This document shows, one piece after another, positions 40,801 through 60,667 of a DNA stretch of 64,000 bases; within the stretch, counting starts at the first letter, position 1, and each line of letters begins with the position of its first letter. The DNA comes from Paracyclopina nana. Taxonomy: Eukaryota; Arthropoda; Copepoda; Cyclopoida; Cyclopettidae. A program made the translations under genes and the position numbers. The DNA lies in contig JAGUCH010000005.1 of assembly GCA_019096065.1 (NCBI GenBank), forward strand, positions 5,456,001 to 5,520,000, read 5' to 3'. The notes beneath the pieces were generated by a model, which saw only the letters and a list, made by a program, of their open reading frames with translations, searched no databases and was not told the DNA's origin.

Positions 40801-43800
40801 CTTACTACAAACATTTGATTCCCATAGAAAATGAAAAATAGAAGGCAGCCTTAGAATTTATTAGTGCCATTTTGTCCTGCGTCAATTTATGCACAGAACT
40901 ACTACAATACTACAACATGAGAAAATTGAGCCACATTATCATCCTGATGGAATTTTTACATTCTACTGTTTTTTTCTGCTTCCTCCCAAAAATCCAACAT
41001 CCACAACAATTACAACAAAAAGGTGACAATACACGCAACCCCGAACAAATGTTTGAAAATTGGAAACTAGGTTTCCCTATTGGATCTGTTCCACGTTGCA
41101 ACAACGAGCACAGTAAGTTTGCTGCTTACAAACAACCAACTGATACAGCAACATTATAAATACTGCTACCCTTACATGTTACTTTCTCTTTCTCAACCCT
41201 CTTCTGAAAACAGAATTGTTATACTTCTCTAATTGCTGTATTCAGGCAAAATACTAATCCATTCTTGTACATTGACTAAAAGTCTATTTTTGCATTGGCC
41301 CTACATTTACCTTTAATTTTCTGAAGACGTAGTAGCAACATGAATTTCTCTAGAAGCAAATGATCTGCTGATATTCTTTTGTTGGCTTGCAAATACTAAA
41401 ATAACCTCATTTGAGGAAACGTCTCACAGCAACAGATCATAATTTTGGTCGGATCAAATTTGTTGAGCTAGGTCTGACATAGGCCTTACAAAAATTGACT
41501 CGCTTCATGAAACCGAAAAGTCAATAAAATTCCAGCTTCTGATTGGTCCTTGCGAAATTGCTCCAAGAATCCGATTGGTCTAATAAGTCACCTCTCTCTT
41601 ACTTCATGTCGCGTCTTTAGAAATCCAAATCATAACATTATGTCGCTATCTAGCGAAAAAACCTGAGCATTATTGCTAAGGGAACGGATTCTAGCACAAG
41701 GAACCGATCATATTTTTTTGAGCTCACTCTCTGTGGATTGCTCTTGCAATTCTCGTTTCCCTTGAGAATGAAAAATTGAACTTAACTATCATATTTAAGA
41801 ATTAAATGGAGACTTCAGTAATTGTTTGTTTTTTTAATTAAAAATCAAAGTTTGTGGTGGAAATGTTAAATTATAACCATTGATCGGGCCCAAAATTCGA
41901 ACCGTAAGCTTCTGCAGGCCATTTTTTCGTCATTTTATGTTATTACTGAATTTTAATGCATTCAAGCTATCGCTTGGCGAAAAAGCCAAATTTGTTGCGT
42001 TTCCTAAGCCAAAGATAATTTTCTGGTAGCGATGACTGTTCTTCCGCTAGATTCGCAATCTTGTCCCACAAAATAAGCTTGGAAGACCCTATGTCAATGT
42101 TATTGTTATGATTTGGTTTTCTTTATTCACCAAGAACTGAGATTAGTTGAGAATCCTTAAGCTCTAGCTCAGCTTGGCAATTTTTACCACGATTTCCCAG
42201 CTGAGAGAGGGCTTCATCCCAAACTAACAAAAATGTAAAGAATTCTCATGCGCTCGCACTTAAAATTTTTCTTGTAGTTGATGTTGATGTTTGTATGCTT
42301 TCATCTTTACTGTAGTCGTTTTTTGTAGTTAATTTTGTCCGTGGAAAGCACATTTTTTAATTACAAAAATCTGCTCTTTTTAGAAAATTTATTTTTCACC
42401 ACACAAGATAGCTCCTCTTAAAATCTTTGTTGTTGTCAAATTTGAACAAAAACCTTTAGTTTCACACCCTCACTCTCTAAAAATAAGTCTATAAACATCC
42501 TACAATATGTTATTCTAATGACTTAGAAGTACTTCAGTTTCTGCTGTTGGATGTTTTCTTCACTTCATTTCTTCATCTCTATATGGCTAAAAGCGTAGTA
42601 GATTAGAAGCCCCATGTTCTATAACTTACAATAAATATCGGACATATGCGTGAAATTGCTAAACGAGTTGCTTATTTTTGTCATGCCATTTTATCCAATC
42701 ACCAGCTGAAAGGGGCAAAGTTGAAGAGTGATTGATTTAACGATAATGTGGTGACATCATATTATGTGCTCTGTCATGTTTTGTGTTCTCAACAATCCAC
42801 CATATTTTCTCAACAACCTTTTTTTCGTTCCCTTGCAGGATTCGATTATTGGGACCCATTCAAAAGTGAGTCGTTTTATTGAGTGAATAAAGCTGCTTCC
42901 ACTTGCCTTAACAATTGCTCGTTTTCCTTGCTTATCTGCTTGCTAAAAGAAGTTTTTTTCAATAGTTTGATGTGTTTTCATTGCAGAAAAAATACTTTTA
43001 GTGTAACATCTTAGATAGCCAGCTTAGCTTACAGCAGATTACGCCTTGATCTCTTTTTCACGGGCAAATTGAAAATGCAAATGCACTGTAAATAGTCCGC
43101 TATGTGAAATGTCCAGATAAGCAAAGTCCGGTTGAAAAAAGACCTGATACTAAAAGTCCGCTCAGATAAAAGGGCGTTCTCATATCGCATTTTAGTTTAA
43201 CCAAAACTGAAACTGGTTAGACCAAACTGACTTTTGTCCGGACAAAAGTCAGCATTCCTGTAGTGTTTAGTTTAACCACAATCAGCGTGGTTTAACTAAA
43301 ATCAGTTTTGGTTAGACCAAACTGCGATATGAGAACGCCCTAAAGACAAGATATATCAGAAGTCCTTTTGAGTCCCAATTTTTTTAAAAGACCACATATG
43401 CCAAAAGGCTGCGTCCCTTTTGCCCTTGGCCGTTTGCCCTTGGCCGTTTGCCCTTGGCCGTTTGCCCTTGGCCATTTGCCCTTGGTACTTTTGCCCATTG
43501 AACTTTTGCCCATGGAGACTTTTGCCCTTGAAACTTTTGCCCATGGACACATTTGCCCTTAGATACTTTTGCCCTTAGGACTTTTGCCCTTGAGGACTTT
43601 TGCCCTTAGGGACTTTTGCCCTTGGGGACTTTTGCCCTTGGGGACTTTTGCCCCTAGGGACTTTTGCCCCTGGGGACTTTTGCCCCTAGGGACTTTTGCC
43701 CTTGGGGACTTTTGCCCTTGGGGACTTTTGCCCTTGGGGACTTTTGCCCTTGGGGACTTTTGCCCTTGGAGATATTTGCCCTTTTTGGACTTTATTTGAA

Positions 43801-45601
43801 GTTCTGATAGTTTGCTTTTAACATACAATTAGAGAATAATGAAAATTAAATTTGAATTTTGTCTATGTGCGTGTACAAGGCCCTTTGATCTACTGGACAT
43901 AGTAAAAGCAACCAATAGAAAGTCCTGATGGGCCAAAGTCCCCACAACCAAAAGACCCACAGCCAAAAGTCCCAAAAGGCCAATGTCACAAAGGGCAAAA
44001 AGTTTAGGAGGGCAAAAGTTCTCAAGGGCAGAAGTCTCAAGGGGTTAAGTCCCCAAGGGCAAATGTCCCCTAGGGTAAAAGTCTCCAAGGCCAGGGCAAA
44101 AGTCCTCCAGGGCAAAAGTCCCCAAGGGCAAAAGTCCCCAAGGGCAAAAGTCCCCAGGGGCAAAAGTCCCCAGGGGCAAAAGTCCCCAGGGGCAAAAGTC
44201 CCCAGGGGCAAGAGTCCCCAGGGGCAAAAGTCCCCAGGGGCAAAAGTCCCCAGGGGCAAAAGTCCTCAGGGGCAAAAGTCCCCAGGGGCAAAAGTCCCCA
44301 AGGGCAAAAGTCCCCAAGGGCAAAAGTCCCCAAGGGCAAAAGTCCCTAGGGGCAAAAGTCTCAAGGGCAAATATCCTGCAGGCAAAAGTTCCCAAGGGCA
44401 AAAGTCTCATGGGCCAAAGTTTCTACGGGCTTACGGCCAAGGGCAAATAGACCAAGGGCAAACGGCCAAGGGCAAAAGTCCTGAGACCATGCCAAAAATG
44501 CCAAAATACTTGCAATTTTGACGTTTTTTGCCGAAGTTGCGTACATTTTTTTTAGTTACGACAACTTTACTTGGTCTTGTGGTCAACTTTTTTACTTTAG
44601 GACTTTTGACAAAAGGATTATATTAATTAGGACTTTTGACATAGCGGGCTTTTCACAGTATTCCCCTACTATAAACAGCAAAAAGCTTATATGCTCTATA
44701 TGTACCATTATTTATCTTCATTTTGCCTTTTTGCCTTTACTCCTCATGCATATCATCAAATCAGGACTGGATTCTCTCTATGACAAAATGGAGCACGTCA
44801 CATTATCCGATGTTTTGTACGGTGAGTATACACTTATTTTCCTCTGTGATGAGAAAAAAAGATAGCCCTCAAAAAAGAAGGTTTTTTTATATATCAAGAG
44901 TTTCCCATCAAAGAGCAAAGTAGTTGGGAAGAAAATGACATAAAAAACGAGCAGCTCCACTATTTTCTTCTTCCATCGCAGATACCAGCAAACCTGAGAT
45001 GAAGACCTGTATTTCCATGGAAGAGTGGATTGACGTGTGGGGAATCGTGGTGGGGAAGGCCAAGCGAATGGACGACTTTCCCATGTGGTTACAATACTAT
45101 CCGAAAGTGCTCTTCGACATCATTAACCGATCGGGTGAGTTCCTCAAACTAAAGTTGACTCAACTCCTGGCTTTTGATACACACTTCATTTCAGGAACTG
45201 GAGTGATCACAAAGAGTGAGCTAAAGTATTTCTACACTGCCTTTATGGACGTGGGAAAGCTGGGAGAAAGCAAGTTGGACGAGATCACCAACAATGCCTA
45301 CACAGCCCTCACATCGGTACATAATTCGACACATGCAGACTATAATTATAATAATAATTTTCTTGCATAGAGTGGTGATGTCAAGTTGACCTTCCATATT
45401 TATCGGCTGTCATTTCTCAATTTTCTGCTGGGAAAGCAGCCCAACGGACCAGGCCAGTATTTGTTTGGAACCGTCGTTCCACACACCTCCACGTGCATGT
45501 TCCCCATTGATTACTCGGCCATGAATTCCACAGAGGAAGACCTCGAGCCATTTCGACCTGACAAACTTGAGAAAGGATCGCGACGCTCTGTGCTTGTGTG
45601 A
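31888..45601 (+). CDS. Calexcitin/sarcoplasmic-type EF-hand protein with long N-terminal extension
   Basis: Exons: 31888-32640, 32828-33146, 39418-39593, 39661-39784, 42839-42865, 44765-44821, 44982-45134, 45195-45316 and 45371-45601. All junctions are GT-AG, phases agree, and the total is 653 residues. Residues 1-357 are Ser/Ala/Asn-rich and basic with polyQ-encoding and polyAla tracts, probably disordered. From about 358 (TAWVHRGFSDDVTE) it matches the four-EF-hand calexcitin/sarcoplasmic calcium-binding fold: loop 1 DLNGDNVISAED (399-410), degenerate middle hands, and loop NRSGTGVITKSE (534-545). Such proteins buffer or sense Ca2+ in neurons and muscle; family members are normally about 200 residues, so two thirds of this one is extension. 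An acceptor at 31843 implies an upstream leader exon. An alternative first exon lies at 38036-38930. Exon 5 is a 27-nt microexon. The EF-hand call is strong; joining exon 2 to exon 3 across 6.3 kb is inferred from phase. Confidence 0.75.
33326..34047. mobile_element. Tc1/mariner-like non-autonomous element (MITE), 722 bp
   Basis: The left end CAGTCTGTCCCGTAGATTTC is mirrored at the right end by GAAACCTACGGGACAGACTG (one difference). Similarity continues inwards for about 120 bp on each side (CTGTACACTTTGAAAT, then GTTTGTG, GGAAAGCTTGAA and GCCATCTTTTTT). Both ends abut TA, the target duplication expected of Tc1/mariner. There is no transposase-sized ORF, so it is a deletion derivative or MITE. 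It lies in the intron of the EF-hand gene. Confidence 0.85.
35081..35268. repeat. Left copy of a 190-bp direct repeat
   Basis: This segment (GAGTACGAAGTAGCTTCC through ACGCGTAAAATATC) is repeated at 35815-36001 with only about three differences: two substitutions and one T indel. The preceding bases TGTTT recur immediately after the right copy, as a 5-bp target duplication would. The arrangement resembles terminal direct repeats of a small LTR/TRIM element, but the ends are not TG...CA. No primer-binding site was found. Confidence 0.85.
35565..35627 (+). repeat. Degenerate tRNA-like sequence (possible SINE head)
   Basis: It carries a good RNA polymerase III A box (TGGCTTAGAGG, 35565-35575) and B box (GGTTCGATTC, 35607-35616) at tRNA-like spacing, and ends GCTGCCACC. 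The acceptor and T stems do not pair, so it is not a functional tRNA. A perfect GTAGAGCG/CGCTCTAC hairpin replaces the normal anticodon arm. It sits between the two 190-bp direct repeats. Confidence 0.5.
35815..36001. repeat. Right copy of the 190-bp direct repeat
   Basis: Nearly identical partner of 35081-35268, in the same orientation, about 546 bp downstream. It is followed by TGTTT, matching the five bases before the left copy. On the minus strand this copy keeps a 70-codon open frame, whereas the extra T in the left copy shifts it. That frame is probably incidental. Confidence 0.85.
38036..38930 (+). CDS. Alternative first coding exon of the EF-hand gene with SxC-F repeats
   Basis: An open frame of 332 codons runs to a stop at 39013. 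Inside it, a good donor GAAC|GTAAGA at 38930/38931 is in phase 1, exactly the phase required by the EF-hand exon at 39418. Joined there it gives a 594-residue isoform (start ATG 38036, MGHPTNISLDLNLERR). Internal repeats include RRPSVCTFFDLVPEREF, RRSSICTVF and SSSVCALFENIPQREF, followed by CGYEPTEAP or AGYDPPEIG, and GVYLGP occurs twice. The many RRxS sites fit basophilic-kinase targets. The domain is not one I know. Alternatives are a separate unspliced gene ending at 39013, or an exon entered through the acceptor CTAACAG at 38014. Confidence 0.6.
42839..42865 (+). other. 27-nt microexon of the EF-hand gene
   Basis: The exon lies between CCCTTGCAG and GTGAGT and encodes GFDYWDPFK across its junctions. 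It is flanked by introns of 3.05 kb and 1.9 kb. Its length is a multiple of three with phase 1 on both sides, so it could be skipped without a frameshift. The frame on both sides and the family's spacing between EF-hands support its inclusion. Confidence 0.65.
43085..44659. mobile_element. Foldback element with inverted 16-bp minisatellite arms
   Basis: The left arm (about 43410-43790) is a tandem array of roughly two dozen units like GGGGACTTTTGCCCTT. The right arm (about 44000-44480) is an array of the reverse complement, AAGGGCAAAAGTCCCC. The outermost units of both arms share the variant GGCCGTTTGCCCTT. Outside the arrays, ACTGTAAATAGTCCGCTATG on the left matches the reverse complement of CATAGCGGGCTTTTCACAGT on the right at about 80%. 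This organisation, long inverted repeats built of short tandem repeats around a small spacer, is that of Drosophila FB-type foldback elements. It lies in the intron after the microexon. No target duplication was found and there is no transposase. Confidence 0.75.
43171..43341. mobile_element. Nested 171-bp palindromic MITE
   Basis: The ends are GGGCGTTCTCATATCGC and its exact complement GCGATATGAGAACGCCC. The whole element is nearly self-complementary, with GGTTAGACCAAACTG/CAGTTTGGTCTAACC-like arms, and its flanks share AAA or TAAA. Near the left-centre is a perfect 26-nt palindrome (43227-43252, core TTTTGTCCGGACAAAA). It interrupts the left outer arm of the foldback element, so by position it inserted later or was captured. 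Confidence 0.75.
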
Positions 45602-47678: not shown

Positions 47679-48473
47679 TTAGCTACTCACGATGGAGAGA
47701 GATTTGATTGTGCCCAACTGCTTGTCCATCTCCTCACGAAACTCGTCGTTGGACAAGTACTTGTAACTATGACTATTTGAGGACACCAGGTGCGTAAAAA
47801 GTCTCGTTGTTTCGCCATAGTAGTCCACCTGAGCTCGGATTAAAGCTTGCAAGCACGGCTGGAAATAATCTACACGTTTCTCGTAAAATTGAGGCAGCTC
47901 GAGGAGCAGAAGCCGGTTCTGATTATCAAAATCCTCTCTTGATTGTAGGTAGGCTTTCTTCGCCTGCTCAATTTTGACGAGGTTCCCGCTCGTCTTTTCC
48001 AATTTGGATAACTTTTCCAATTTAGCTTGACACTTGAGGCATTCGGCGAGAGCAGCATCTCGCTTTTTTAGGGCGGCTGCAATGGCGCCGAACTCCGCTG
48101 ACAACTTTTTCATGGGCTCAACCACAGTTTTCTGGCTAAGGTGGGTCAAATCTCCGGTCGCGTGTCCCAACTGGTACACGACAGATTGGTAATCTTCGGC
48201 AATTTTGCGCAAATCCTCCGAATCTTCGTATTCTCGACACAGCGGAGAATTGGACAAATCACTAGACATTTTCCGTTCGAGCCTTTGCAGGCCGTTGGCA
48301 CATTCTTCATGGCGCCTCTCTTCTTTGTACAACTTTTTGCAATGATCTTCGAGGTCACGCAGGTTTTTAAAGGCCAGCTCCAGATCTCGCTCTTCTGCGT
48401 GAGTTGCGAGTCCTTGAGTGAGTTGTGGGCGCTGAGACAAGTACGGCTTCCTCAACAAATTGTTCCACGCCAT
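47679..48473 (-). CDS. BIN3: BIN3-like N-BAR domain protein, intronless
   Basis: A single uninterrupted ORF of 264 residues, close to the roughly 250 of vertebrate BIN3. Family-defining stretches are KTVVEPMKKLSAEFGAIAAAL, REDFDNQNRLLLLELPQFYE, KRVDYFQPCLQALIRAQVDYY and the C-terminal LSIV. The whole protein is one BAR domain of long amphipathic coiled-coil helices; there is no SH3 domain, as in BIN3. BAR dimers bind curved membranes, and BIN3 is linked to actin organisation and cytokinesis in fungi and vertebrates. Start ATG 48473 (MAWNNLLRKPYL) is close to the family start. The gene is oriented head-to-head with LUC7L. A GTGAGTAG overlapping the last codons looks like a splice donor, but the native stop gives the expected family C-terminus. 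Confidence 0.88.
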   Translation of the reverse strand: MAWNNLLRKPYLSQRPQLTQGLATHAEERDLELAFKNLRDLEDHCKKLYKEERRHEECANGLQRLERKMSSDLSNSPLCREYEDSEDLRKIAEDYQSVVYQLGHATGDLTHLSQKTVVEPMKKLSAEFGAIAAALKKRDAALAECLKCQAKLEKLSKLEKTSGNLVKIEQAKKAYLQSREDFDNQNRLLLLELPQFYEKRVDYFQPCLQALIRAQVDYYGETTRLFTHLVSSNSHSYKYLSNDEFREEMDKQLGTIKSLSIVSS

Positions 48474-48949
48474 TTCGCGATATATTTATTCCATCACCTT
48501 ATTTTTCATTACTTTGACAGATTCTCAATCAATAGCTGAGCACCAAGTAGTTACGCGGAGTCATATAAGTAAGTACTGTTTATATTCTGGCGCTTTCTGA
48601 GTATATTTGGCGTTTTCACAAAGCAAATTCTCCTAAAACATTTTTATAAATAGAAGTACTGTCAACTTAATCTAAGGCATAAAACGTAAAACAGCTCTCC
48701 TTTAAGGATAAGAATTTGTAATAAATAGGCTGTAAATGCGTTGAAAAATTGAAAAAACATATTTATTAACGATTTAAAATATATTTTTACACTCACTTTT
48801 GCAAAAAAGGTCAATTTGTCTCTTACTTAAAACATGGATAGGCATAAAATCGGTCCGATTTTTTACCTTTAGGAAAAGTGAAGAAAGCAACTAGCGTCAG
48901 CGGATAAAAAATTGAGTTCGAAAGGGAAGCAAATTGAACTTTGGCGAGG
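48474..48949. promoter_or_regulatory. Shared BIN3-LUC7L intergenic region (probable bidirectional promoter)
   Basis: 476 bp separate the ATGs of two divergent genes. No TATA box is obvious and the DNA is A+T-rich. The region must hold both 5' UTRs and transcription starts, so a bidirectional promoter is the simplest reading. Confidence 0.55.
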
Positions 48950-51900
48950 ATGTCGGCATCTGAGCAAATGCGAGCCATGCTCGACCAGCTGATGGGAACC
49001 GCCCGAAACGGTGAGTACTCCGCTACCTTTGAATCCGGCCATTTTCATTTTGTTTACCACAAATCATCAAATAAAAACAAAGAAGACGAAAGAAAAACGC
49101 TCAGCGCCCTGAACGAGTTTTTTGAAAAATGGCTCCCCGTTCCTTTCTAGGAGATCCGAGTTTTTCTGTTGTTCATGTTCAGGGCAGCCGTCTCGAAGCC
49201 AGAATCTGCCATGTAACGTATTTCTCAACATAACTTGCAGTGCACTGACCTCCGAAAAGCCCTTTATTTTTGCTCGTTATCTTTCTTGGCTTTCGTGTTA
49301 AGTGCAGTGCACTGTAATCATTCTTTTGTTTTTCGTCTCGTCGTACTGTTAAGCAAGGGTCGAAAATCAAAGTAAATTATCCTCCTTTAATTGGTGCCAT
49401 TCGAGATTCGAAGTCTGCTTGCTGATCGAGTTGGGATGAGTTGCTGACAGAGACAGTCGTACGTATTTTTAACCTTTTTCTTGATGAGACAATACGTTTC
49501 TCTGCAATGAAACTTTTCTTCACAAAATCTGCCGTTGTCCTGGTAAGTTGGGCAAATGTGCAGCTCAATTTCATTTACTGTATTGTTACAAAAACTTCTC
49601 CTGAGGTCGAGCTCCATGATCAGCATAAAAAATCCAGGTGTTGGTGAGTCCAAAAAGCTATCATACTCTACTATTGTCCATTCATGATGCATACAATCAT
49701 TTAGATCTGCCATATAACAACGATATGTCATAATTACATGTGCTGGTCACTTCTGTAACGAAAAAAGGAATCTTTTAATTTCAAATTATTCTTTTTTCAA
49801 CTTGTTCTTGAGAAAGTGCAACTTCTGCTGCAAACTAGTACATATTTACTGCTTTCTGTACTACACTCGGACAGCAATTGCCGCTTGCATTACCTAATGC
49901 TCTCTTTCCACTTTCAGGTCCTGACGCCAGCCAGCATGGAGTTAAATTTACCGACCACAAGGTTTGCAAATCATTCCTCTATGGATGCTGTCCCCACGAG
50001 ATTCTTGCTTCTACGGTAAGTCCCCGCCTAAGGAGAATGATTGGATTAATAATATGTGGCTTTCACAGAGGATGGACTTGGGAGAATGTCCCAAAATACA
50101 TGACTTGGCTCTGAGAGCTGATTACCAACAAGCAACAAAGGACAAAGATTACTTCTATGATGTTGAGGTAAGCAAAATAATTTACTCCTCCTAATCCAAT
50201 GGGATTCGCCATCTGTTTTTTTTCCATCGTAGGCTACAGAGCATTTGAATGCGTTCATTCAAGATTGCGACCGTAGGACAGAATTGGCCAAGCAGAGGCT
50301 TGCCGAGACTCAGGAGGAGTTGTCGGCCGAAGTGAGTTCAAAGGCAGAGAAAGTGCACGAATTGGCTGAACTGATTGGCAAAAAGTTGGCTCAAGCCGAG
50401 CAAGCTGGCGCCGAGGGCAAAGTCGAGGAGAGCATGAAATTCATGGAAGAAGTTGAGGAGATTCGCAAAAAGAAGGTTGCTGCTGAACTCGAGTATCGCA
50501 ATTCTATGCCTGCGTCCTCGTACCAACAGCAAAAGTTGAGGGTCTGTGAGGTGTGCTCGGCATACCTGGGAATCCACGATAATGATCGGAGGCTGGCCGA
50601 CCATTTCGGAGGCAAATTGCACCTTGGATTTATCAAAATTAGGGAAAAGCTGGATGAACTATTGGTAATAGGGTTTCCATGCCCCAAAAGCATTGCTTAT
50701 GCCTAAACTTTTTGCAGAAAACGTATGAAACGCGCAAGGAGAAGCGGAGGGAGGTTCGCATCCGGGATGGGCTGCCGCCAACTGGAGCCCCTGATTTCAG
50801 CGTGACTGGAGATGCTCCTCGTGATCGCGAAGATCGGGACCGTAGGCGATCCAGATCCAGGGATAGGGATCGTCATCGTCGCCGTCGCTCTCGTTCCCGT
50901 TCTAGAGGTTGGTAAAATTTGAAAAACTATAAAAACCTGTGTAAGAATTCGCTCTTTCATCCTTAGATCGTCACCGCCATCGTCGCCATCGACGATCTCG
51001 CTCCAGAGATCGCAGGAGGTCCAGGTCTAGATCTCGGGATCGAAGGTGAGATATGCAACGAGGATTGTAATATAACTGAGGACTCTTGTAACGTGTTTCG
51101 ATTTTGTTCTCCTTTTCCGCCATCGTTTCGTTTATTTTGCTCTCTTCTGGGATCTTGTTAAACTCAATCGCACTCTCGCAGAAGGAGATCGTACTCCCGA
51201 TCAAGTTCTGAATCCAGATCGAGGTCCCGCTCACGCGAAAGGAGGTCAAGGAGGTAAAGACTGCATTAATTTGATTTCCGCGAAGCTTTTCTTACCCCTT
51301 TGAAATTATTCTCGTGAGTTGTCCTCGTTTCAAATTGACGCCATTTTGAAGCACTAAAAGCATATGAATTCGTTTCAGCCATCGTTCCAAATCCAAGAGA
51401 ACAAGCCGATCCCGAAGCCGTAGCCGGGAGGATCGTCGCGGTTCAAGAAGCCGTCGGTCTCAAGACCAATCTCCAGAGAAGCCCATTGATCCGTAAGTTT
51501 ATTGCAATTTCAACTGACACCAAACACTCAAAGTAAACAATTGCATTGCTATCAGGCCGATAGCGGCTTTGAAGTAATCATAATCCGAGGCTGCTCCAGA
51601 TGTCGTGTTGGGAGGTCGTTTAGTCGAGCTCGATGGGTATTTCGTTGTAGTTGTAGTGGAAGTGAAGCCCGGGAACGTGCAAATGTCGTCGTAGCTTCCC
51701 CAATATTTGTGCATCCATGCCACAGCTTTCACCAGCAAATGATTGTTTGTCTCCAAGCCATGCAACACGTGGCCTTCACCTAAAAAAAATCATTGAATCA
51801 CTGATACTAGCTAATTACTTGCTAATTACCAGGGTAGTGGTACAGTGAAGTTGGGGCTGACATCTGACTCCTCAAAGCTTTGTAGAATGGGATTCCTTGG

Positions 51901-54900
51901 GCTTCAGGCAGAACTCGTTTGTCTTCAGTTCCAACGAAAATAAGGGTGGCAGCCTTGATTTGGTTCACCTTGTTAAGCGGTGACTTTTCCCAGGCTGATG
52001 ACAAAATTTCGGTTGGCACACTCGCTGAGCTGTAATTCACTCCCATCACGTGGTATGGCCATTCGGCTAGATCGACAGAACTCGACATGGCTCCAATATC
52101 GGCGATCGGGTTAACCAGCACGGTCACGTTGAATCGACTTTTTCTCTTGAGGGAAAGTTGCACCGCAATCGTAGCTCCATATCCTTCCCCGAGCAAGGCA
52201 ATTCTAGTCTCATCCAGTTGGGTATTGTTGGTGAGCGTGTAGTTGATTGCTTGCTCAACGTCATTGACGTCAAACTAGAAAAGTTACAATCTGAATTTCC
52301 CCCAAAAGTTATTGTTTAAGTTGTGAGCAGATTTATTACCAGTCCAATGTTGGAAATGACCGACTCGAGTGAATTGTCTCCCATGCCTGTGGATCCTCGG
52401 TAATTGACCAATAAAACGGCCATATCGAGGGCCAAGAACGTGTTGGCCTTGATGTCGAAGCCTCGGCTAAACTGCTCATGTGGGCCATCATGGATGAACA
52501 CGACCAAGGGCATTTTGTCTGCGTGGTCCAAGTGGGGAGGAGCAGCGAAAATGGCGTTGAAATATTCGCCTTTTTGATGGGCCTGCGACCATCGTCTCAC
52601 GTTGCGGCCCTCCAAAATGTAGTCTTCAATGAGGATCTCCTTGTTGAATTCCTGCGTGAATGGGTGGAATTGGGCAAAGGCCCATGGTAGAGGATAAGTA
52701 TGAGGATGAATTGTGGTCGTGGTGGTGGTTGTGGTGGTTGTCGGCTCAGTCGTTGTAGGAGTTGTCATGACAGCGGTGGTCGGAGTTCCCATTGTGGTTG
52801 AGTGCGTTTCTCCGTTGTCGAGCTCAAGCTGTTGGAGCATATCGTCACATGGGTCTGTGGTGGTGGTGAGAGGAGTGGTGGTAGTCGTGGTGGTGGAAGT
52901 GGTGATTGTGGTGGTTGGGATTGTGGTTGTGGTCGTCGTGGACGTTTGGGCATGGAATGCAACGAAAGCAGCTGCGAGCCTTGACGGGAAATTGAGGCTG
53001 TTTTTCTGCACCAGGACCAAGTCGTCCGTGACGTCCATGATGATCACGTCAGGTTCAGGGTGGATTGTGAGCTAGGAAAAGTTTTCGATTATTTCACATA
53101 TATGCTAGTATATTGCCAACGTACTTGTTTGGTGTTCAAATCAACTGCGATTGCTCGGAGTGATCCGGCTTGGTAGATGGTCAAGTACATGACGTGGTCA
53201 TTGGAGAAGCAACGATCCGGCAAGGGGAATTTCGGGTACAGTCCGTAGAATGTTGTGCCATCGTGCATGGTGACAGCCTCTTGAACGTCGTCAATGACAA
53301 GTTCAGACGCATCAATGCCCAGCTGTCCGCTTTGAGCAGCCTTCTTCGACTCCATTTCAGCCTCGGCCAGAACGAATCTCTTGAGCTGTCTTGACTTGTC
53401 TTGCGGGCCGGGTACCAAGTATCGATCTGCTGTGCTCAGCTCGTTCTCAAAGTACACGATGGACAAGCCGTCATTTGTCAGCCTTGGTGAGGCTGCATGG
53501 CGATCCTCCGGAGTCAGGAGCACAAAGTGGTCTTCAACTAATGAGCTAGTTTTGAAAAGGTCAGCTGCAAACACCTAAATAGCATAGGAGACATAAATTA
53601 TTCATCAACGTTTCGCAGAGCTTATTTCTCACTTGGCTTTTACGATTTGCACAACTTGGGCAGCCCATTGGGAAGGGATGGTTCCACCAGACTAATCCAA
53701 TGATTCCGGAGCTGTCGTGCTTCCATGACAACTCGCCAGCTGAGTAGAACTGTGGGATGGTCTCAAGCCCTTGAAAGCTTAGATTTTCAATATCATAAAG
53801 CACCACAATTGGCCTCGCTGCTTTGGGCGATTCTCCGAACGTTCCAAGGTATAAATATTTTGACATTGGGTTGTTCGGGCTTTCAGCAGTATACAATAAA
53901 TATCTGGAATGGCATGCAAACAATGTACTTTACCGGAGCAACTAAAAAAGCCCTGCTTACTTTCCATCCGGGCTGAACTTGAAGGTGCCAAATGTGTCAT
54001 CGGTGAGAACTTTGCCATGTATGTTGCTATACATGTTAAGCCTCAAAGTGCAGCTCGTTTGCGCATTTGACGTGTTGACTGTCAAATACTGCTCGCCATA
54101 TTCGTTCACTGACAGCTGAGCAGAAGCTCCTGTCTCCCTATGAAAATCCATCAATTGCACGTTATCCATGACTGTCAGCGCCCCTTCGTATGAGTTGACC
54201 AGTTCGTGATCAAATTCCACAAGGCTGAAGGTCCTTGCGTACTTCCTGGTCCTTGCGTTGGCCACGTCAGCTTTCGTCCACCTCACACTGACGTCGAAAG
54301 TGGTTTCTCCGGAAGCCTCATCTGTATGCTGTCCCAGCACTCGAGCAAAGTTCAAAATGGGAGTCTCCGCCACACTCTTGAATTTTTCGTTGAATTTCTG
54401 ATGCAGCTCCTCAAATTTGAGATCAATGCAGGTGTCATTCAAGTGGGACTTCAAGTCAGCCTCGGAGGCTTCTATGAGGTATAGAGAAACTAGCAAAATT
54501 GCCAACTTCATTGTCTTGGGGCTGATCATTGGCAATTGATGATCTGTTGTTGCACTCCAGTTTGCAGGTACAGCAGCACGGCCTCGATTATCATACAATG
54601 GATCACACATCCTCATGCTCAGCATTAATTAGTGGCCTTCTGGCTCAGCACAGTTTCGTTAATGAGTAGGAATTTTCTATTGTAGTACTCTCCTACTCTC
54701 TTCTGCAGGATTACATTTGCTAAAATCTGGATTGAACGCACGCAATCCTGGTCGAGTCTGATGCCGAGTACTGATGCTGCATCCGTAATATCGAATAAGC
54801 TAGCCTGCACCCTTCTCCTTGTATCAATTTCAGAATCCGAAGCATTTTTCCTCGTTTTTGCTGCGTCTGCCAATCAGCAATCAATCATTGTTTTTCCTGT

Positions 54901-55033
54901 CTGTCCATCAATAATCAGACAATTATGCTTGAGTCGAAGCCTATTAATTGCGATTTTTTGTTTCAGGGCACCCAAACCGGAGTTGGACGCATCTGGAAAT
55001 GGAGCTGAAGCTTTTCCGGAGTACGATTACTAG
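48950..55033 (+). CDS. LUC7L: LUC7-like U1 snRNP-associated splicing factor
   Basis: Nine exons: 48950-49010, 49918-50015, 50069-50167, 50233-50664, 50718-50907, 50967-51045, 51182-51253, 51379-51492 and 54967-55033. All introns are GT-AG and in phase; 403 residues. It begins MSASEQMRAMLDQLMGTARN, the near-invariant LUC7 N-terminus. The CCCH-type finger uses C37, C45, C60 and H64 (SFLYGCCPHEILAST, GECPKIHDLALRADY). A coiled coil spans about 90-180. The C2H2 finger (VCEVCSAYLGIHDNDRRLAD) is at about 191-216. From about 265 there is a long RS/RD/RH-rich domain, ending in the short tail APKPELDASGNGAEAFPEYDY. LUC7 proteins bind U1 snRNP and help choose 5' splice sites. The last intron (51493-54966) contains a complete antisense gene. 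Poly(A) signal at 55128. Confidence 0.93.
49387..49731 (-). CDS. Unrecognised Cys-rich ORF antisense in LUC7L intron 1
   Basis: An ATG-initiated ORF of 114 codons in the first LUC7L intron (49011-49917). It contains nine cysteines, six of them clustered near the C-terminus (ICPTYQDNGRFCEEKFHC, then TYCLIK and YDCLC), somewhat like an EGF-type or small disulfide domain. There is no clear signal peptide and I recognised no family. It could be a small gene, one exon of a larger minus-strand gene, or chance. A second nested gene in the same host would parallel the one at 51499-54511. Confidence 0.3.
   Translation of the reverse strand: MTYRCYMADLNDCMHHEWTIVEYDSFLDSPTPGFFMLIMELDLRRSFCNNTVNEIELHICPTYQDNGRFCEEKFHCRETYCLIKKKVKNTYDCLCQQLIPTRSASRLRISNGTN
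51498..51503 (-). terminator. Poly(A) signal overlapping a stop codon and abutting a splice donor
   Basis: The minus-strand AATAAA contains the TAA stop (51499-51501) of the nested peptidase-like gene. On the plus strand the same DNA lies in the donor region of LUC7L exon 8 (exon ends at 51492, GTAAGTTTATT). Cleavage 10-30 nt downstream would fall inside LUC7L exon 8. Confidence 0.7.
51499..54511 (-). CDS. Secreted acylaminoacyl-peptidase-like pseudoenzyme nested in LUC7L
   Basis: Six exons (minus): 53961-54511, 53633-53903, 53125-53574, 52340-53071, 51830-52274 and 51499-51779. All GT-AG and in phase; 909 residues (915 from ATG 54529). MKLAILLVSLYLIEASEA is a signal peptide. A beta-propeller-type region (FSPDGKYLLYTAESP; LVWWNHPFPMGCPSC) is followed by a Thr-rich, mucin-like stretch at about 467-550. 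Then comes an S9C alpha/beta-hydrolase domain resembling APEH: PLVVFIHDGPHEQF, AVLLVNYRGSTGMGDNS, IFVGTEDKRV. The nucleophile motif, GGSHGG in APEH, is GEGYGA here, so Ser is Gly (about 699). The Asp (about 786) and His (about 820, GEGHVLHG) are kept. The C-terminus is another Thr/Ser/Pro stalk and a hydrophobic end (AAIGLIAMQLFTLSVWC), suggesting a GPI or membrane anchor. APEH is normally cytosolic and active. This one is probably an extracellular non-catalytic binding protein, by analogy with DPP6/DPP10. Confidence 0.82.
54625..54873 (-). CDS. Hypothetical 82-codon open frame without ATG
   Basis: An open minus-strand frame in the last LUC7L intron, about 100 bp upstream of the nested peptidase-like gene. 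It reads RRRVQASLFDITDAASVLGI and QDCVRSIQILANVILQKRVG, helical and protein-like. The frame has no ATG and follows a stop directly. A possible acceptor (TTGGCAG|ACGCAG) precedes it, so it may be an exon of an unlocated gene or chance. A remote resemblance to the small helical MZT1/MOZART fold is speculative. Confidence 0.25.
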   Translation of the reverse strand: MADAAKTRKNASDSEIDTRRRVQASLFDITDAASVLGIRLDQDCVRSIQILANVILQKRVGEYYNRKFLLINETVLSQKATN

Positions 55034-55787: not shown

Positions 55788-58700
55788 CTAGAATGCTGAT
55801 TGCTTGATCCGCTCAAGCCGTTTGCGAATCGCATCCACATCTGGAGCACCACCAGCATTGGCGCTGGACTGCTGGCTCGCTGCTGTCAAAGTTGAAGAAG
55901 TTGACTCGGTTTCAACCTCAGCAGACGAGGAGGAGGCCGCAGAATAAGCACGACTGCTGCTTGAATATGTCTCCACCGAGGACGAGGCAGAGGTTATTTT
56001 GTAGACACTCGACGAAGATCCGATGCCAGAGGTCATTGCCGAGCTGCCCCCCGAGCTCCCATCCAGACCAGCTTGAGCCCTCAGCTTCCTCAGCCTGTCC
56101 AAGTAGAGGAGATGTGGAGCTGCCCCCGATTCCCCAGAGTTGTTGTCCATGGCACTTCGAGTGGTAGAATCAGCCAATACGCGGCCCTCATCCCGGCTCG
56201 TTTCAGCCTCTATGGACTTGAGGCCGCGCTCAATGTAATTCCTAAAGTAGTCCGAGGATTTCTCCAGGAAAGGCTCCAAATCGGCGTGCGGGTTTTGCTG
56301 CTTGAAGTTGTACAGCTCCTGCAGCCCCTGTTTGGTCAAGTCCTTTTGGCCGATCTTCTTGAAGATCTCCGCCAACGCATCGTGATCCGATTTGGTAAAG
56401 CGTGGGATTTTCCCCCCGCCGCCCGAATTCGCTTTGTTCCCGTTTTTCAGCGCATTCTCCGCATTGTTCTCCTTGCCAATGCCATTATTGAGAAGCTTTC
56501 TGAGATAGGCGACAAGCTCGGAATTTTGGGGGTCATTGATTTGGGTCAGGTTGTCTAAAATGGCATCGCCTCGCTCCTTCACCATTGCGTGCAGCACCGT
56601 TTTGACAGTTCGCAAGGGGGTGTCCGAGTCTTGCTTTTTCCAATAGGAAGGTGGATACGTTTTGAGGAAGTCGTGCAAATCTGACAGCACGAGGTCAACA
56701 TCCAGGGGTCCAACCTCGTCGGCCATCCAGTTGGGCAGCAGTCGGATGATCTTCCACATGCACTTCATCACGGTCTCTGAGAATTTCGGGTTCAAGCTGG
56801 AGTTGGCAACTGCATCGCTCAGCAGCTTAACGATGGCAGAGGTGATGTTGGAGTGGTCGCTCCGATCAATCATTTTCACAGTGAGCACATTGAGGGCCCG
56901 CAAGACTTGAGCTCCGTCCGGAAGTTGCTCCATTTTGGGCTCCAAAAGAATGCTAATAATGACATGAAAGAGGTCATGCAATGCAGCGGTGGAAGCGTTG
57001 CGCGTCAAATCCGCGTGATGGTAGGTCGACATCAGGACCATGGTGAGATACTGGAAAAGCCTCATGACCTCCTTGGCGTTGCTGGCAGCATTGTCCGTCC
57101 GCATCTTGTTATTGAGGACATGACGGTACTGCATGTAGCACGCAGTCAACAGCTGGTCCATCCTCGAGCCCAGAAGAGCCACCTTTTGGTCATCTTTGAC
57201 AAACTCGTCCAATTGGGACAAGGCTGTGATGCAAGCAGTGGCATCTTTGTTGAATACCTGGGCAAGGATCACATCAAGGGCTTCGTGGGCCTCAGTGTTC
57301 TCAGTGAGGGGCACCACCATGGTGGGGCTGCCTCCCAAGGGAGAAGTGGTGATATGTGTCCTCGAGGGAGAAGGTGGGAAATTTGGACGGCGGCTTGAAA
57401 GCGTAGGTGGCACGACAGGATCGTCATTGAAAATGGAGTCCAAGTTGTGATTAACCAGTTGGTGCATGGCAGACGAGACCCAGGCACTGCCATCAGTGCT
57501 GCCAGACTCGATCTTGTCCAGGTCAAGTGTGAAGGCCCCTGAAACGGGTCGGTCCCTGCCCCCTCCACCTCCACCCACAGGACTGGTCTTCTGGGGCATT
57601 TGCGACTGTTGATATCTCCTCTGAAGGGCTGCAAGGCCACTGCTGGTACCTCCTCCTCCAGCAATGGGAATACCACGGGTTGCAACGCTTCCAGGTCTTG
57701 GGAGGCCCGAGTGAGAAGGAGCAGCTTCTGGAGGTGGTGCAACTGGAGCTGGAGGCTCCGACGCGCCCATACCAGCTGGCCTCCCCTTGGATGTACGCTT
57801 GATGCGCTCCTCCAGCATTGCCATTTCACGTTCAGGCAAATTTCCAACCATCTTGTACATCTTTTCCCCAGCCTGAAAAATAATTCACGCATGTAAGCTG
57901 CAGACATCTTCATGAATAAAAGCAACGAAAATAGAAAATGGGAGGCTAAATCGCATAACTTATCAAGTCTTAAAGTCGGCTCGGAATAAATCAAATTTTC
58001 ACAGATTTCCCAATTGAATGAATTTTTAAAATAAAAAACAACAACCGACCACTTACTTGGAAATACGCTTCGGTGATGGCATTCAAGGCTGCATTTCTCA
58101 CAGCAGTATCTCGATCAGCAATCTGCTTGGCCACTTCTTTCATGCTCGCAGCTGGAGACGGCTGCAGAACATTGATTCCGAAATCACAGATCATGGCGCC
58201 AATATCATCGAGACACTCGGTACGCTGCTTTGCATTCTTCGACTTGATCCCCTCTAAGATGTGGGGGCAAAACTTGGATACTGGGTACACTTGGCGCAGC
58301 TTCTTGAACAAGCTTTTGATGCTATTGCGAACTTGGTCCTTGGGATCCCCAACTTTGTTCACCAAGTAGGGGATGAAAGAGACAGCCTCGATATCATGAA
58401 GGCTGTACGAGTCCACGGCTAGCGCAGCAAAGACTTCGTTCAAATATTCCAAAGCCTTGAGCAGCACCGACGGATTGGTCTCGAAGAAGCGCAATGTGAT
58501 CCACTTGAGCAACAAATCCAGGTTGGCAATCAGTCCATCCAGATCTGCGTCAACGTACTTGGACAAAGACTCGATCGCCTTCAGATGCTGCTTGAAGTCA
58601 GCATGGAACATTTGCGTGAAGAGGGTTCGGTTGAAATTGGCCGCAGTCATCTGCTCCTTCAACTGATCGATGAATTCACCGCGAGGCTGGGCGAAATTCC

Positions 58701-60667
58701 ACTTGAGTAGCTTCAACTTTTGCTCGTCCTTGAACCTCTGATTTTTCAAGTTAATCGTGTTGCTATAGGGCGGTCCCATGTCCACATCTTCGCTTTTCTT
58801 GCGAGAAGCAACTGAAGTTGCTGGCCTCGCCGCGGCTGCGGCTCTGGTTGTTCCCCTGGCGGAAACAGCTCCTCTCCTTGCCGGAGCTGAACTTGTCTTC
58901 CGGACCGGAGCAGGTGGTGGTGGCAAATCATCGTCATCTCCCATATCGTAGGTTTCGGGAGCAGTCTCCTTTTTCACCACCGAAGTTTTGGCCCCAGGCC
59001 TGACAACCTTCTTGGCAGCCGCACTTCCACCTCGAGACTTGACCACTTTGGCCCCAGATGATCCAGCCTTTTCGCCAGCCTCCTGGCTGGTGATTTTGGG
59101 CATTTTACCAGTGAGGACCGTTTTGTCGCAATACTCCTTAACTTTGGCCATTTTGATGGCGTCCAAATCGGGCATCAACTTGGTAAGCGTGGGCTCGCCC
59201 AGAATTTTCATGAGGACTCCTAAAGCCTCCGAGGCCGCCTCACGCACCCCTCCATCAGCATGGTTGAGGCAATCAAGCAAGGCCGACACGTAGCCTTTGA
59301 CCATTTTCTTGTTTGTAATCAGTTGAGGAGGGCAACGAGCAAAGCTTCGGCCCAAATATTTGGCCGTCTCAGAGACCACGGAGGGCGTCTTATGTTTCAA
59401 AGTGGCCAATGTATCCTCCTGAATGGCCTCAATTCCTAGGCAAGGGTAAATGGCATCGACCGCTTCGACGAGGGCTGCTACCACGTTGACCTTCTTCTCC
59501 TTGAATTTTTCCAATATGGTGGGCAAGCATTGAGAGGCTCCGTTTTTGAACGTGGCTCGCAAGCCTTTCGCCAATCCAGCCAAGCACTGAGCTGCTAATG
59601 CAACAAGCATGACATTCGTGTCCTTGCCGATGAACTTTTTCAGTACTCGAGTGAGCTCATTGTAATCCCCATTTGGTGAGATTTTGGGGGATTGAGATAA
59701 TGGTAGCAGAGCATCGAGCGCTTCTTTACGCAATTGCCACTTTTTCTCCTCGACGAGCTCGTAGAAGTTTTTGGGCAATTTATCCAGAATGTCGACCGGA
59801 TCGATCAAATCAAACGGGTCCGCAGCCTCGTCGACCTCTTCGTCCTCTTTCTCTTGCCCTCCATTATTTTCTTGGTCCTCATCTTCAGCAGCTCCGCCAG
59901 CAAATTGCTGCTGAGACCGCAACAGCCTCTCCGGCTTGGCTCGTTCGTTGGCGAATTTAGCGAATTCGGCCTCCAATTCCGACATCTGAACCGGCTTGAC
60001 CGAGCTGAGCTGCTGCTTCATGATATCTCCAACCCATCTGTAGGCCTCCACAATCAGAGCCTTGCCCTCCTCACGGACACCTTTGTCGCGGTGGTCAAGC
60101 AGTGGAACGACAGCTTTCAGCAGGGGCGAAATCTTGATCACTTTGGCACCAAACGAGTGAAGACACTCTGTGAGAATGTTGATGCATCCAGACCCGACTT
60201 TGGGGTTTTTGTGTGGCAAGCCCTTGAGCAGTTCCTCAATGGCCTTCTCGAAGACTTCGATCTCGCAGAACATGAGCACGATTTGCTTGGCGAGGTCTTT
60301 GGTCTTGGCCTTGGGAGCAGCCACGCATTTTGCGACAATGCCTTCGACACAGTCGGAGACCACCTTGGGTGCAGCATCACAGTTTTCGACGTAAGCCAAT
60401 GCGGCCTCGAGGCCTTTCTCCTGAGCCACCGCATTGCTGTCAATGATGAACTTTTTAATCTGGCCATTGAACTGCAAAACACGAAATCTTTTCAAAATCC
60501 AATCATTGAATTAGCTATTTAAAAATTACCTTTTTCCAATTGGAGTCATCTCCGTCCCATTGATTGAACAGCTTGATGGCTTCCTCGTAGCCAGAGAGAC
60601 GAGCCTTCCACAATTTGTGAATGCATCGATCTTCCACTGGCAACTTTAGATATTCGTCCTCTTCCAT
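55788..60667 (-). CDS. msps: XMAP215/ch-TOG/minispindles microtubule polymerase, shortened TOG array
   Basis: Three exons (minus): 60530-60667, 58057-60471 and 55788-57872, all GT-AG and phase 0; 1545 residues. MEEDEYLKLPVEDRCIHKLW starts TOG1 (residues about 1-230). TOG2 (about 265-500) has DPVDILDKLPKNFYELVEEK and GKDTNVMLVALAAQCLAGLA. A basic Pro/Ala/Lys linker (KKVVRPGAKTSVVKKE) follows. The third TOG (about 610-870) has KLLKWNFAQPRGEFIDQLKE, SKNAKQRTECLDDIG and EREMAMLEERIKR, matching TOG5 of metazoan orthologues. Then come a low-complexity linker, the conserved C-terminal helical domain (about 1050-1430) and a Ser-rich tail. Orthologues in flies and humans have five TOGs and about 2030 residues; TOG3 and TOG4 appear absent. 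The family drives plus-end microtubule growth at spindles and centrosomes. A leader exon lies about 2 kb upstream. Confidence 0.93.

Follow-up and report, generated by a model that had tools for sequence, protein, structure and literature searches.

A 64,000-nt stretch of contig JAGUCH010000005.1 of the copepod Paracyclopina nana (assembly GCA_019096065.1, positions 5,456,001 to 5,520,000; referred to below as the window) carries a minus-strand gene encoding a homolog, in sequence and fold, of acylaminoacyl peptidase (APEH/AARE; peptidase family S9C) in which the catalytic serine is replaced by glycine. The loss of the serine is real and exceeds what an error in one codon could produce. The reading that we favor, and consider probable, is that this gene is an old S9C paralog now encoding an extracellular pseudopeptidase that is tethered by its C terminus and binds a peptide or protein partner.

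Among solved structures, the closest match to the window protein was pig APEH (E value, 5.4e-54), which aligned over stretches of both the propeller and the hydrolase domain; the next match was at an E value of 8e-15, and the DPP4 and FAP rows were far weaker (34.5 bits or less, compared to 186.7 bits for pig APEH). The Pfam Peptidase_S9 profile matched with an E value of 1.6e-24, and APEH_N barely passed (24.3 bits compared to a cutoff of 23.1; E value, 2e-5). Structure prediction was limited to exon 5 and built on a 14-sequence alignment; the resulting model had a mean predicted local distance difference test score of 85.6. When it was used in a Foldseek search, the top six rows were all mammalian acylaminoacyl peptidase (best E value, 1.5e-11; template modeling score, 0.83 over the query). 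The best solved matches are thus serine-bearing APEHs, related to the window protein as homologs only, and an active secreted peptidase with the serine intact did not emerge as the best match. Descent from family S9B (DPP6/DPP10) was not supported, APEH being the best match and the neighbor in a tree that was built without S9B rows.

The substitution lies in the nucleophile elbow itself, where the original prediction had placed it. The elbow reads GEGYGA, compared to GGSHGG in pig APEH and in two other APEH genes of the same genome (at C9:5835170 and C7:2509992, hereafter C9 and C7), and Gly699 occupies the position of pig Ser587. No Ser, Thr, or Cys aligned at this position, and no different serine aligned in the elbow. 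The exon 5 model has a strand at residues 25 to 30, Gly699 as residue 31, and a helix at residues 32 to 43, which is the layout of a nucleophile elbow. The codon, GGA, is at least two base changes from every Ser codon; therefore, a single base error does not explain the glycine. The changes extend beyond the nucleophile. In pig APEH, the amides of Gly509 and His588 hold the oxyanion, the loop being residues 508 to 511 (PMC12514842, the source of the pig catalytic residue names and P2 contacts used here). The window protein has HDGP in place of HGGP, with Asp619 at pig Gly508; Gly620 is retained at the hydrogen-bond donor Gly509, and the equivalent of His588 is Tyr700. The catalytic Asp and His persist, as had been predicted: Asp786 and His820 align with pig Asp675 and His707. 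Arg788 and Asp736 are also retained at the pair which in pig APEH binds the P2 residue, Arg677 with its partner Asp624. Like mammalian APEH (PDB 7px8, 7qun, 9gne, and 9gou), then, the protein combines a propeller and an alpha/beta-hydrolase domain with the Asp, the His, and the Arg-Asp pair, but of the features expected of an active peptidase the GxSxGG serine and the HGGP loop are missing. On its sequence, it would be classed as an S9 nonpeptidase homolog, that is, a protein with S9 homology in which an essential catalytic residue is missing.

The departure from the family pattern is unusual in both near and distant company. A search of the genome with Peptidase_S9 gave at least 21 matches, which were grouped by hand into 12 places; C4:6985192 and C4:3874391 were excluded from the S9 gene count because they read as other alpha/beta hydrolases. 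Nine of the 10 S9 genes found read GxSxGG by eye (GGSHGG twice, GWSYGG five times, and GVSYGG and GGSNGG once each), the window gene being the exception. The other members are presumably DPP4-like or prolyl oligopeptidases, names that we assign from the motifs. A separate canonical APEH had been suggested as a check, and C9 and C7 both answer it: unlike the window gene, they keep GGSHGG and HGGP intact, and they belong to the same family, pig APEH being their sole match at an E value of 1e-40 or better (1.7e-86 and 3.6e-71, respectively). A genome search with the APEH_N profile recovered both C9 and C7 but, exon by exon, missed the window gene. In the hydrolase domain, the window protein is 29% identical to C9 and 26.5% identical to C7, whereas C9 and C7 are 45% identical to each other. 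Prokaryotic relatives were collected by scanning genome contigs of a non-eukaryotic collection with two patterns outside the elbow. Of the resulting 32 loci, 4 of which resemble other hydrolases, all 32 have the nucleophile serine, and the Asp, the His, and the loop Gly (the Asp619 column) are each present in all 32 as well. Two scans of viral contigs with the exon 5 and exon 4 frames found no relative.

The rest of the domain was compared at the hydrolase columns that are identical in pig APEH, C9, C7, 8wt1, and 5yzm (n = 36). The window protein retains 25 of these; the 11 lost fall in GGSxGGF (4), in HGGP (1), and elsewhere (6). When each of the five reference S9C sequences was left out in turn, it lost 3 to 6 of 39 to 42 columns, compared to 12 to 15 of the same columns for the window protein.

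A tree of 30 of 38 rows was built after dropping L081 to L084, which have other-hydrolase motifs, and the near-identical Sphingobium-type rows L055, L057, L058, and L059. It placed the window gene within the animal APEH clade (support, 100/99) and outside the group of pig APEH, C9, and C7 (92/83; not a starred branch). Pairing with C9 alone (P = 0.0046) or with C7 alone (P = 0.006) was rejected, which means that the window gene predates the C9/C7 duplication. An earlier six-row FastTree had put it nearer to bacterial rows (0.825), a placement absent from the 30-row tree. By this evidence the gene reads as an old paralog and not as a recent dead copy, and the original prediction of a lineage is supported to the extent that the gene is an old one.

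Sequence features suggestive of an exported protein lie where they had been described, at the N terminus, between the propeller and the hydrolase domain, and at the C terminus; pig APEH, in the alignments, is without all three. The N-terminal segment MKLAILLVSLYLIEASEA has a hydrophobic core of about 11 residues, with small residues before a possible cleavage site after SEA. A membrane anchor would normally be longer, which makes a cleaved signal more probable here than a type II anchor. The open frame of C9 has no such hydrophobic N terminus. The Thr-rich insert separates the propeller from the hydrolase domain (residues ∼566 to 845), and 53 of its 78 residues are Thr, Ser, or Pro; its 44 Thr residues use all four codons (ACC 21, ACA 10, ACG 7, and ACT 6). 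A second Thr/Ser/Pro-rich stretch, FTSTTTTTKYPSSSTKRPPNTTSGA, follows the hydrolase domain. The 17-residue Kyte-Doolittle mean peaks in the C-terminal stretch AAIGLIAMQLFTLSVWC (1.82), which is followed by QLKLQ, five residues to the end. Taken together, the signal-like N terminus, the Thr-rich stalks, and the hydrophobic tail suggest a candidate exported and anchored protein. In the exon 2 propeller region, residues 265 to 268 form a CPSC (CxxC) motif where pig APEH has IRFC; it is possibly a disulfide if the protein is exported.

A known parallel exists in DPP6 and DPP10, members of S9B that share the S9 fold and, like the window protein, have lost the nucleophile serine; the DPP10 motif is GKGYGG, and its Asp and His are retained (PMC4350108). 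In DPP10, the Asp and His are still hydrogen bonded and the conformation of the elbow is unchanged, but activity is nil (PMC4350108). DPP6 and DPP10 are noncatalytic surface partners of Kv4 channels (PMC4350108, PMC4873792). Fly DPP10 retains peptidase activity (PMC4873792), so the loss of DPP10 activity in mammals is lineage specific. The likeness to DPP10 that had been drawn at the outset is thus real at the level of the motif, as an analogy and not as kinship: DPP10 belongs to S9B and has an N-terminal type II membrane anchor, whereas the window protein belongs to S9C and has a candidate C-terminal anchor. Most likely, the nucleophile was lost independently in the two.

Other explanations differ in how much of this they accept. 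The same pseudoenzyme could be soluble and secreted, with a tail that is no anchor, as a Thr-rich secretory or gut-lumen component. The merely moderate hydrophobicity of the tail and its polar end speak for this, but a stalk that leads into 17 hydrophobic residues at the very C terminus is the arrangement typical of anchored ectoproteins, and we regard a soluble form as unlikely. It would be quite surprising if the gene were instead a decaying pseudogene or an outgoing allele without protein function. Several conserved positions were lost together, and the end branch of the gene is long (1.37). However, the 909 codons contain no stop, the five introns follow the consensus, and 25 of the 36 deeply invariant columns are kept; moreover, the gene arose before the C9/C7 duplication, and a neutral frame of this length would not be expected to stay open so long. 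No more plausible is an enzyme that still works through water or another residue together with the retained Asp-His pair. Asp786, His820, and the oxyanion donor Gly620 are all in place for it, but glycine is no nucleophile, no substitute aligns at its position, the oxyanion loop and the neighbors in the elbow are altered too, and DPP10 is inactive despite its Asp and His (PMC4350108). Least credible of all is that the assembly or the gene model is wrong at the elbow. There is one assembly, and the gene model was built from sequence alone; on the other hand, GGA is more than one change from any Ser codon, and exon 5 is a single open frame of 150 codons with neighboring substitutions in the same motif. 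The adjoining introns are just 65 and 50 nt, which leaves little space for an alternative exon 5.

Several observations weigh against the tethered pseudopeptidase or against parts of it. Among the prokaryotic relatives, the Arg788 column has Arg in 15 of 32 and the Asp736 column has Asp in 7 of 32; because the pair is so variable there, its presence in the window protein lends little support to a binding pocket. There is no enrichment of N-glycosylation sequons (8, compared to a shuffle mean of 7.4). In the tree, a clade of the window gene with C9 and C7 (P = 0.10) and a pairing with pig APEH (P = 0.18) were not rejected, so the deeper order is not firm, and the long end branch lowers trust in it further. 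A second column test compared motif columns chosen by hand with the other columns. The window protein kept 14/25 motif columns and 26/47 others (P = 1.0), compared to 25/27 and 47/88 for C7 (P = 1.8e-4) and 25/26 and 47/86 for pig APEH (P = 4e-5). For C9, however, the values were 25/27 and 47/63 (just P = 0.08), and for two bacterial enzymes, presumed active, they were 16/25 and 23/47 (P = 0.32). With C9 and the bacterial enzymes not clearly enriched, this test is without a clean control.

The gene (Table 1) runs exactly from ATG to stop codon over the interval originally given, 51499..54511. Splice sites were picked by consensus and reading frame; the five introns are all GT-AG (57, 58, 53, 65, and 50 nt, 5′ to 3′), and there are no internal stops. 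The GC content at third codon positions is 57%, compared to 26 to 44% in the introns. The chosen start is preceded by another in-frame ATG 18 nt upstream and by more ATGs beyond that one; the N terminus could therefore be slightly longer.

Table 1. Positions in the window of the gene, its exons, and notable segments and codons
Feature	Coordinates	Strand	Basis
Whole gene, 6 exons, 909 codons plus stop	54511..51499	-	ATG to stop codon
Exon 1: start codon, signal-peptide-like N terminus, first part of propeller	53961..54511	-	Gene model; donor GTAAGC
Exon 2: propeller region	53633..53903	-	Gene model; with exon 3 aligns to pig APEH propeller (domain 2, residues 199-316)
Exon 3: propeller region	53125..53574	-	Gene model
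Exon 4: end of propeller, Thr-rich insert, start of hydrolase domain	52340..53071	-	Gene model
Exon 5: nucleophile elbow through strand with catalytic Asp	51830..52274	-	Gene model; predicted structure
Exon 6: catalytic-His strand, second stalk, hydrophobic tail, stop	51499..51779	-	Gene model
Signal-peptide-like segment MKLAILLVSLYLIEASEA, residues 1-18	54458..54511	-	Read from sequence
Thr-rich insert, residues 467-544	52712..52945	-	Composition
Asp619 codon, oxyanion loop (pig Gly508)	52487..52489	-	Alignments
Gly699 codon GGA, nucleophile position (pig Ser587)	52182..52184	-	Alignments
Asp786, retained catalytic Asp (pig Asp675)	51921..51923	-	Alignments
His820, retained catalytic His (pig His707)	51769..51771	-	Alignments
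Second Thr/Ser/Pro-rich stretch FTSTTTTTKYPSSSTKRPPNTTSGA, residues 855-879	51592..51666	-	Composition
Hydrophobic C-terminal stretch AAIGLIAMQLFTLSVWC, residues 888-904	51517..51567	-	Composition; candidate glycosylphosphatidylinositol signal or short-tailed membrane anchor
AATAAA, overlapping the stop codon	51498..51503	-	Read from sequence

The entire coding region is nested antisense within one intron (51493-54966) of a plus-strand LUC7-like splicing-factor gene, the host being identified by a single-exon match to the LUC7 Pfam profile (E value, 1.7e-45) and by an intron donor and acceptor read from the sequence. A gap of 7 nt separates the stop codon of the nested gene from the host exon, and the AATAAA overlaps that stop codon. 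The nested transcript therefore probably ends inside the host exon, where the two transcripts may overlap head-on. The minus-strand neighbors look ordinary: an unbroken BIN3-like BAR-domain frame and an XMAP215-type TOG-domain frame (within 47679-48485 and 55788-60510). Another nested gene is perhaps present at C3:11000000-11009500 (L037), where a 381-codon glycosyltransferase-like frame separates a prolyl-oligopeptidase-like nucleophile exon from a Peptidase_S9 match further along the same strand. Elsewhere in the window, positions 43417 to 44476 contain two arrays of a 16-base unit, ∼24 copies of CTTTTGCCCTTGGGGA (43417-43783) and ∼28 copies of CAAAAGTCCCCAAGGG (43964-44406), which resemble inverted copies of one satellite. 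At the contig ends (L043 to L050), imperfect arrays of TTAGG, a repeat that points to an arthropod, were present in five of eight stretches, mixed with variants of the TTGGG type; L043 and L046 have thousands of bases of a five-base GGCCT/AGGCC satellite instead.

For the tethered pseudopeptidase, the following mode of action can be proposed. The N-terminal signal would direct the protein into the secretory pathway, and the Thr-rich, probably O-glycosylated stalk together with the tail anchor would hold it off the membrane. No acyl-enzyme could form because the nucleophile is missing. Since the fold, the Asp, the His, and the Arg788-Asp736 pair are retained, the protein most likely uses its cleft or its propeller to bind a peptide or protein partner, as a scaffold, part of a receptor, or a decoy; by analogy with DPP10, function by binding at the cell surface would be the most likely one. 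A peptide in the old cleft is conceivable, given Arg788-Asp736, Asp786, and His820. A bolder version, which we put forward tentatively and think the less likely outcome, is that APEH pseudoenzymes tethered to the cell surface form a long-standing lineage in arthropods or in animals more widely; the glycine would be conserved across species, and the proteins would recognize N-acylated or other peptides extracellularly through the old cleft, as an S9C counterpart of DPP6/DPP10.

No report of a secreted APEH pseudoenzyme was found among the listings of the literature searches, which covered open papers. Loss of the nucleophile with the fold kept is already known in the S9B branch, from DPP6 and DPP10. 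What appears to be new, as judged by family placement and predicted topology, is that the APEH branch has also yielded an S9 pseudopeptidase, one with a different topology. If this is true, family S9 has made the switch from peptidase to surface binder on two occasions, the second of them starting from an enzyme that is known to be cytosolic, and the S9C form would have a topology of its own, with a cleavable signal, a Thr-rich stalk, and a C-terminal tail. It would also provide an independent system in which to ask what a dead S9 fold binds.

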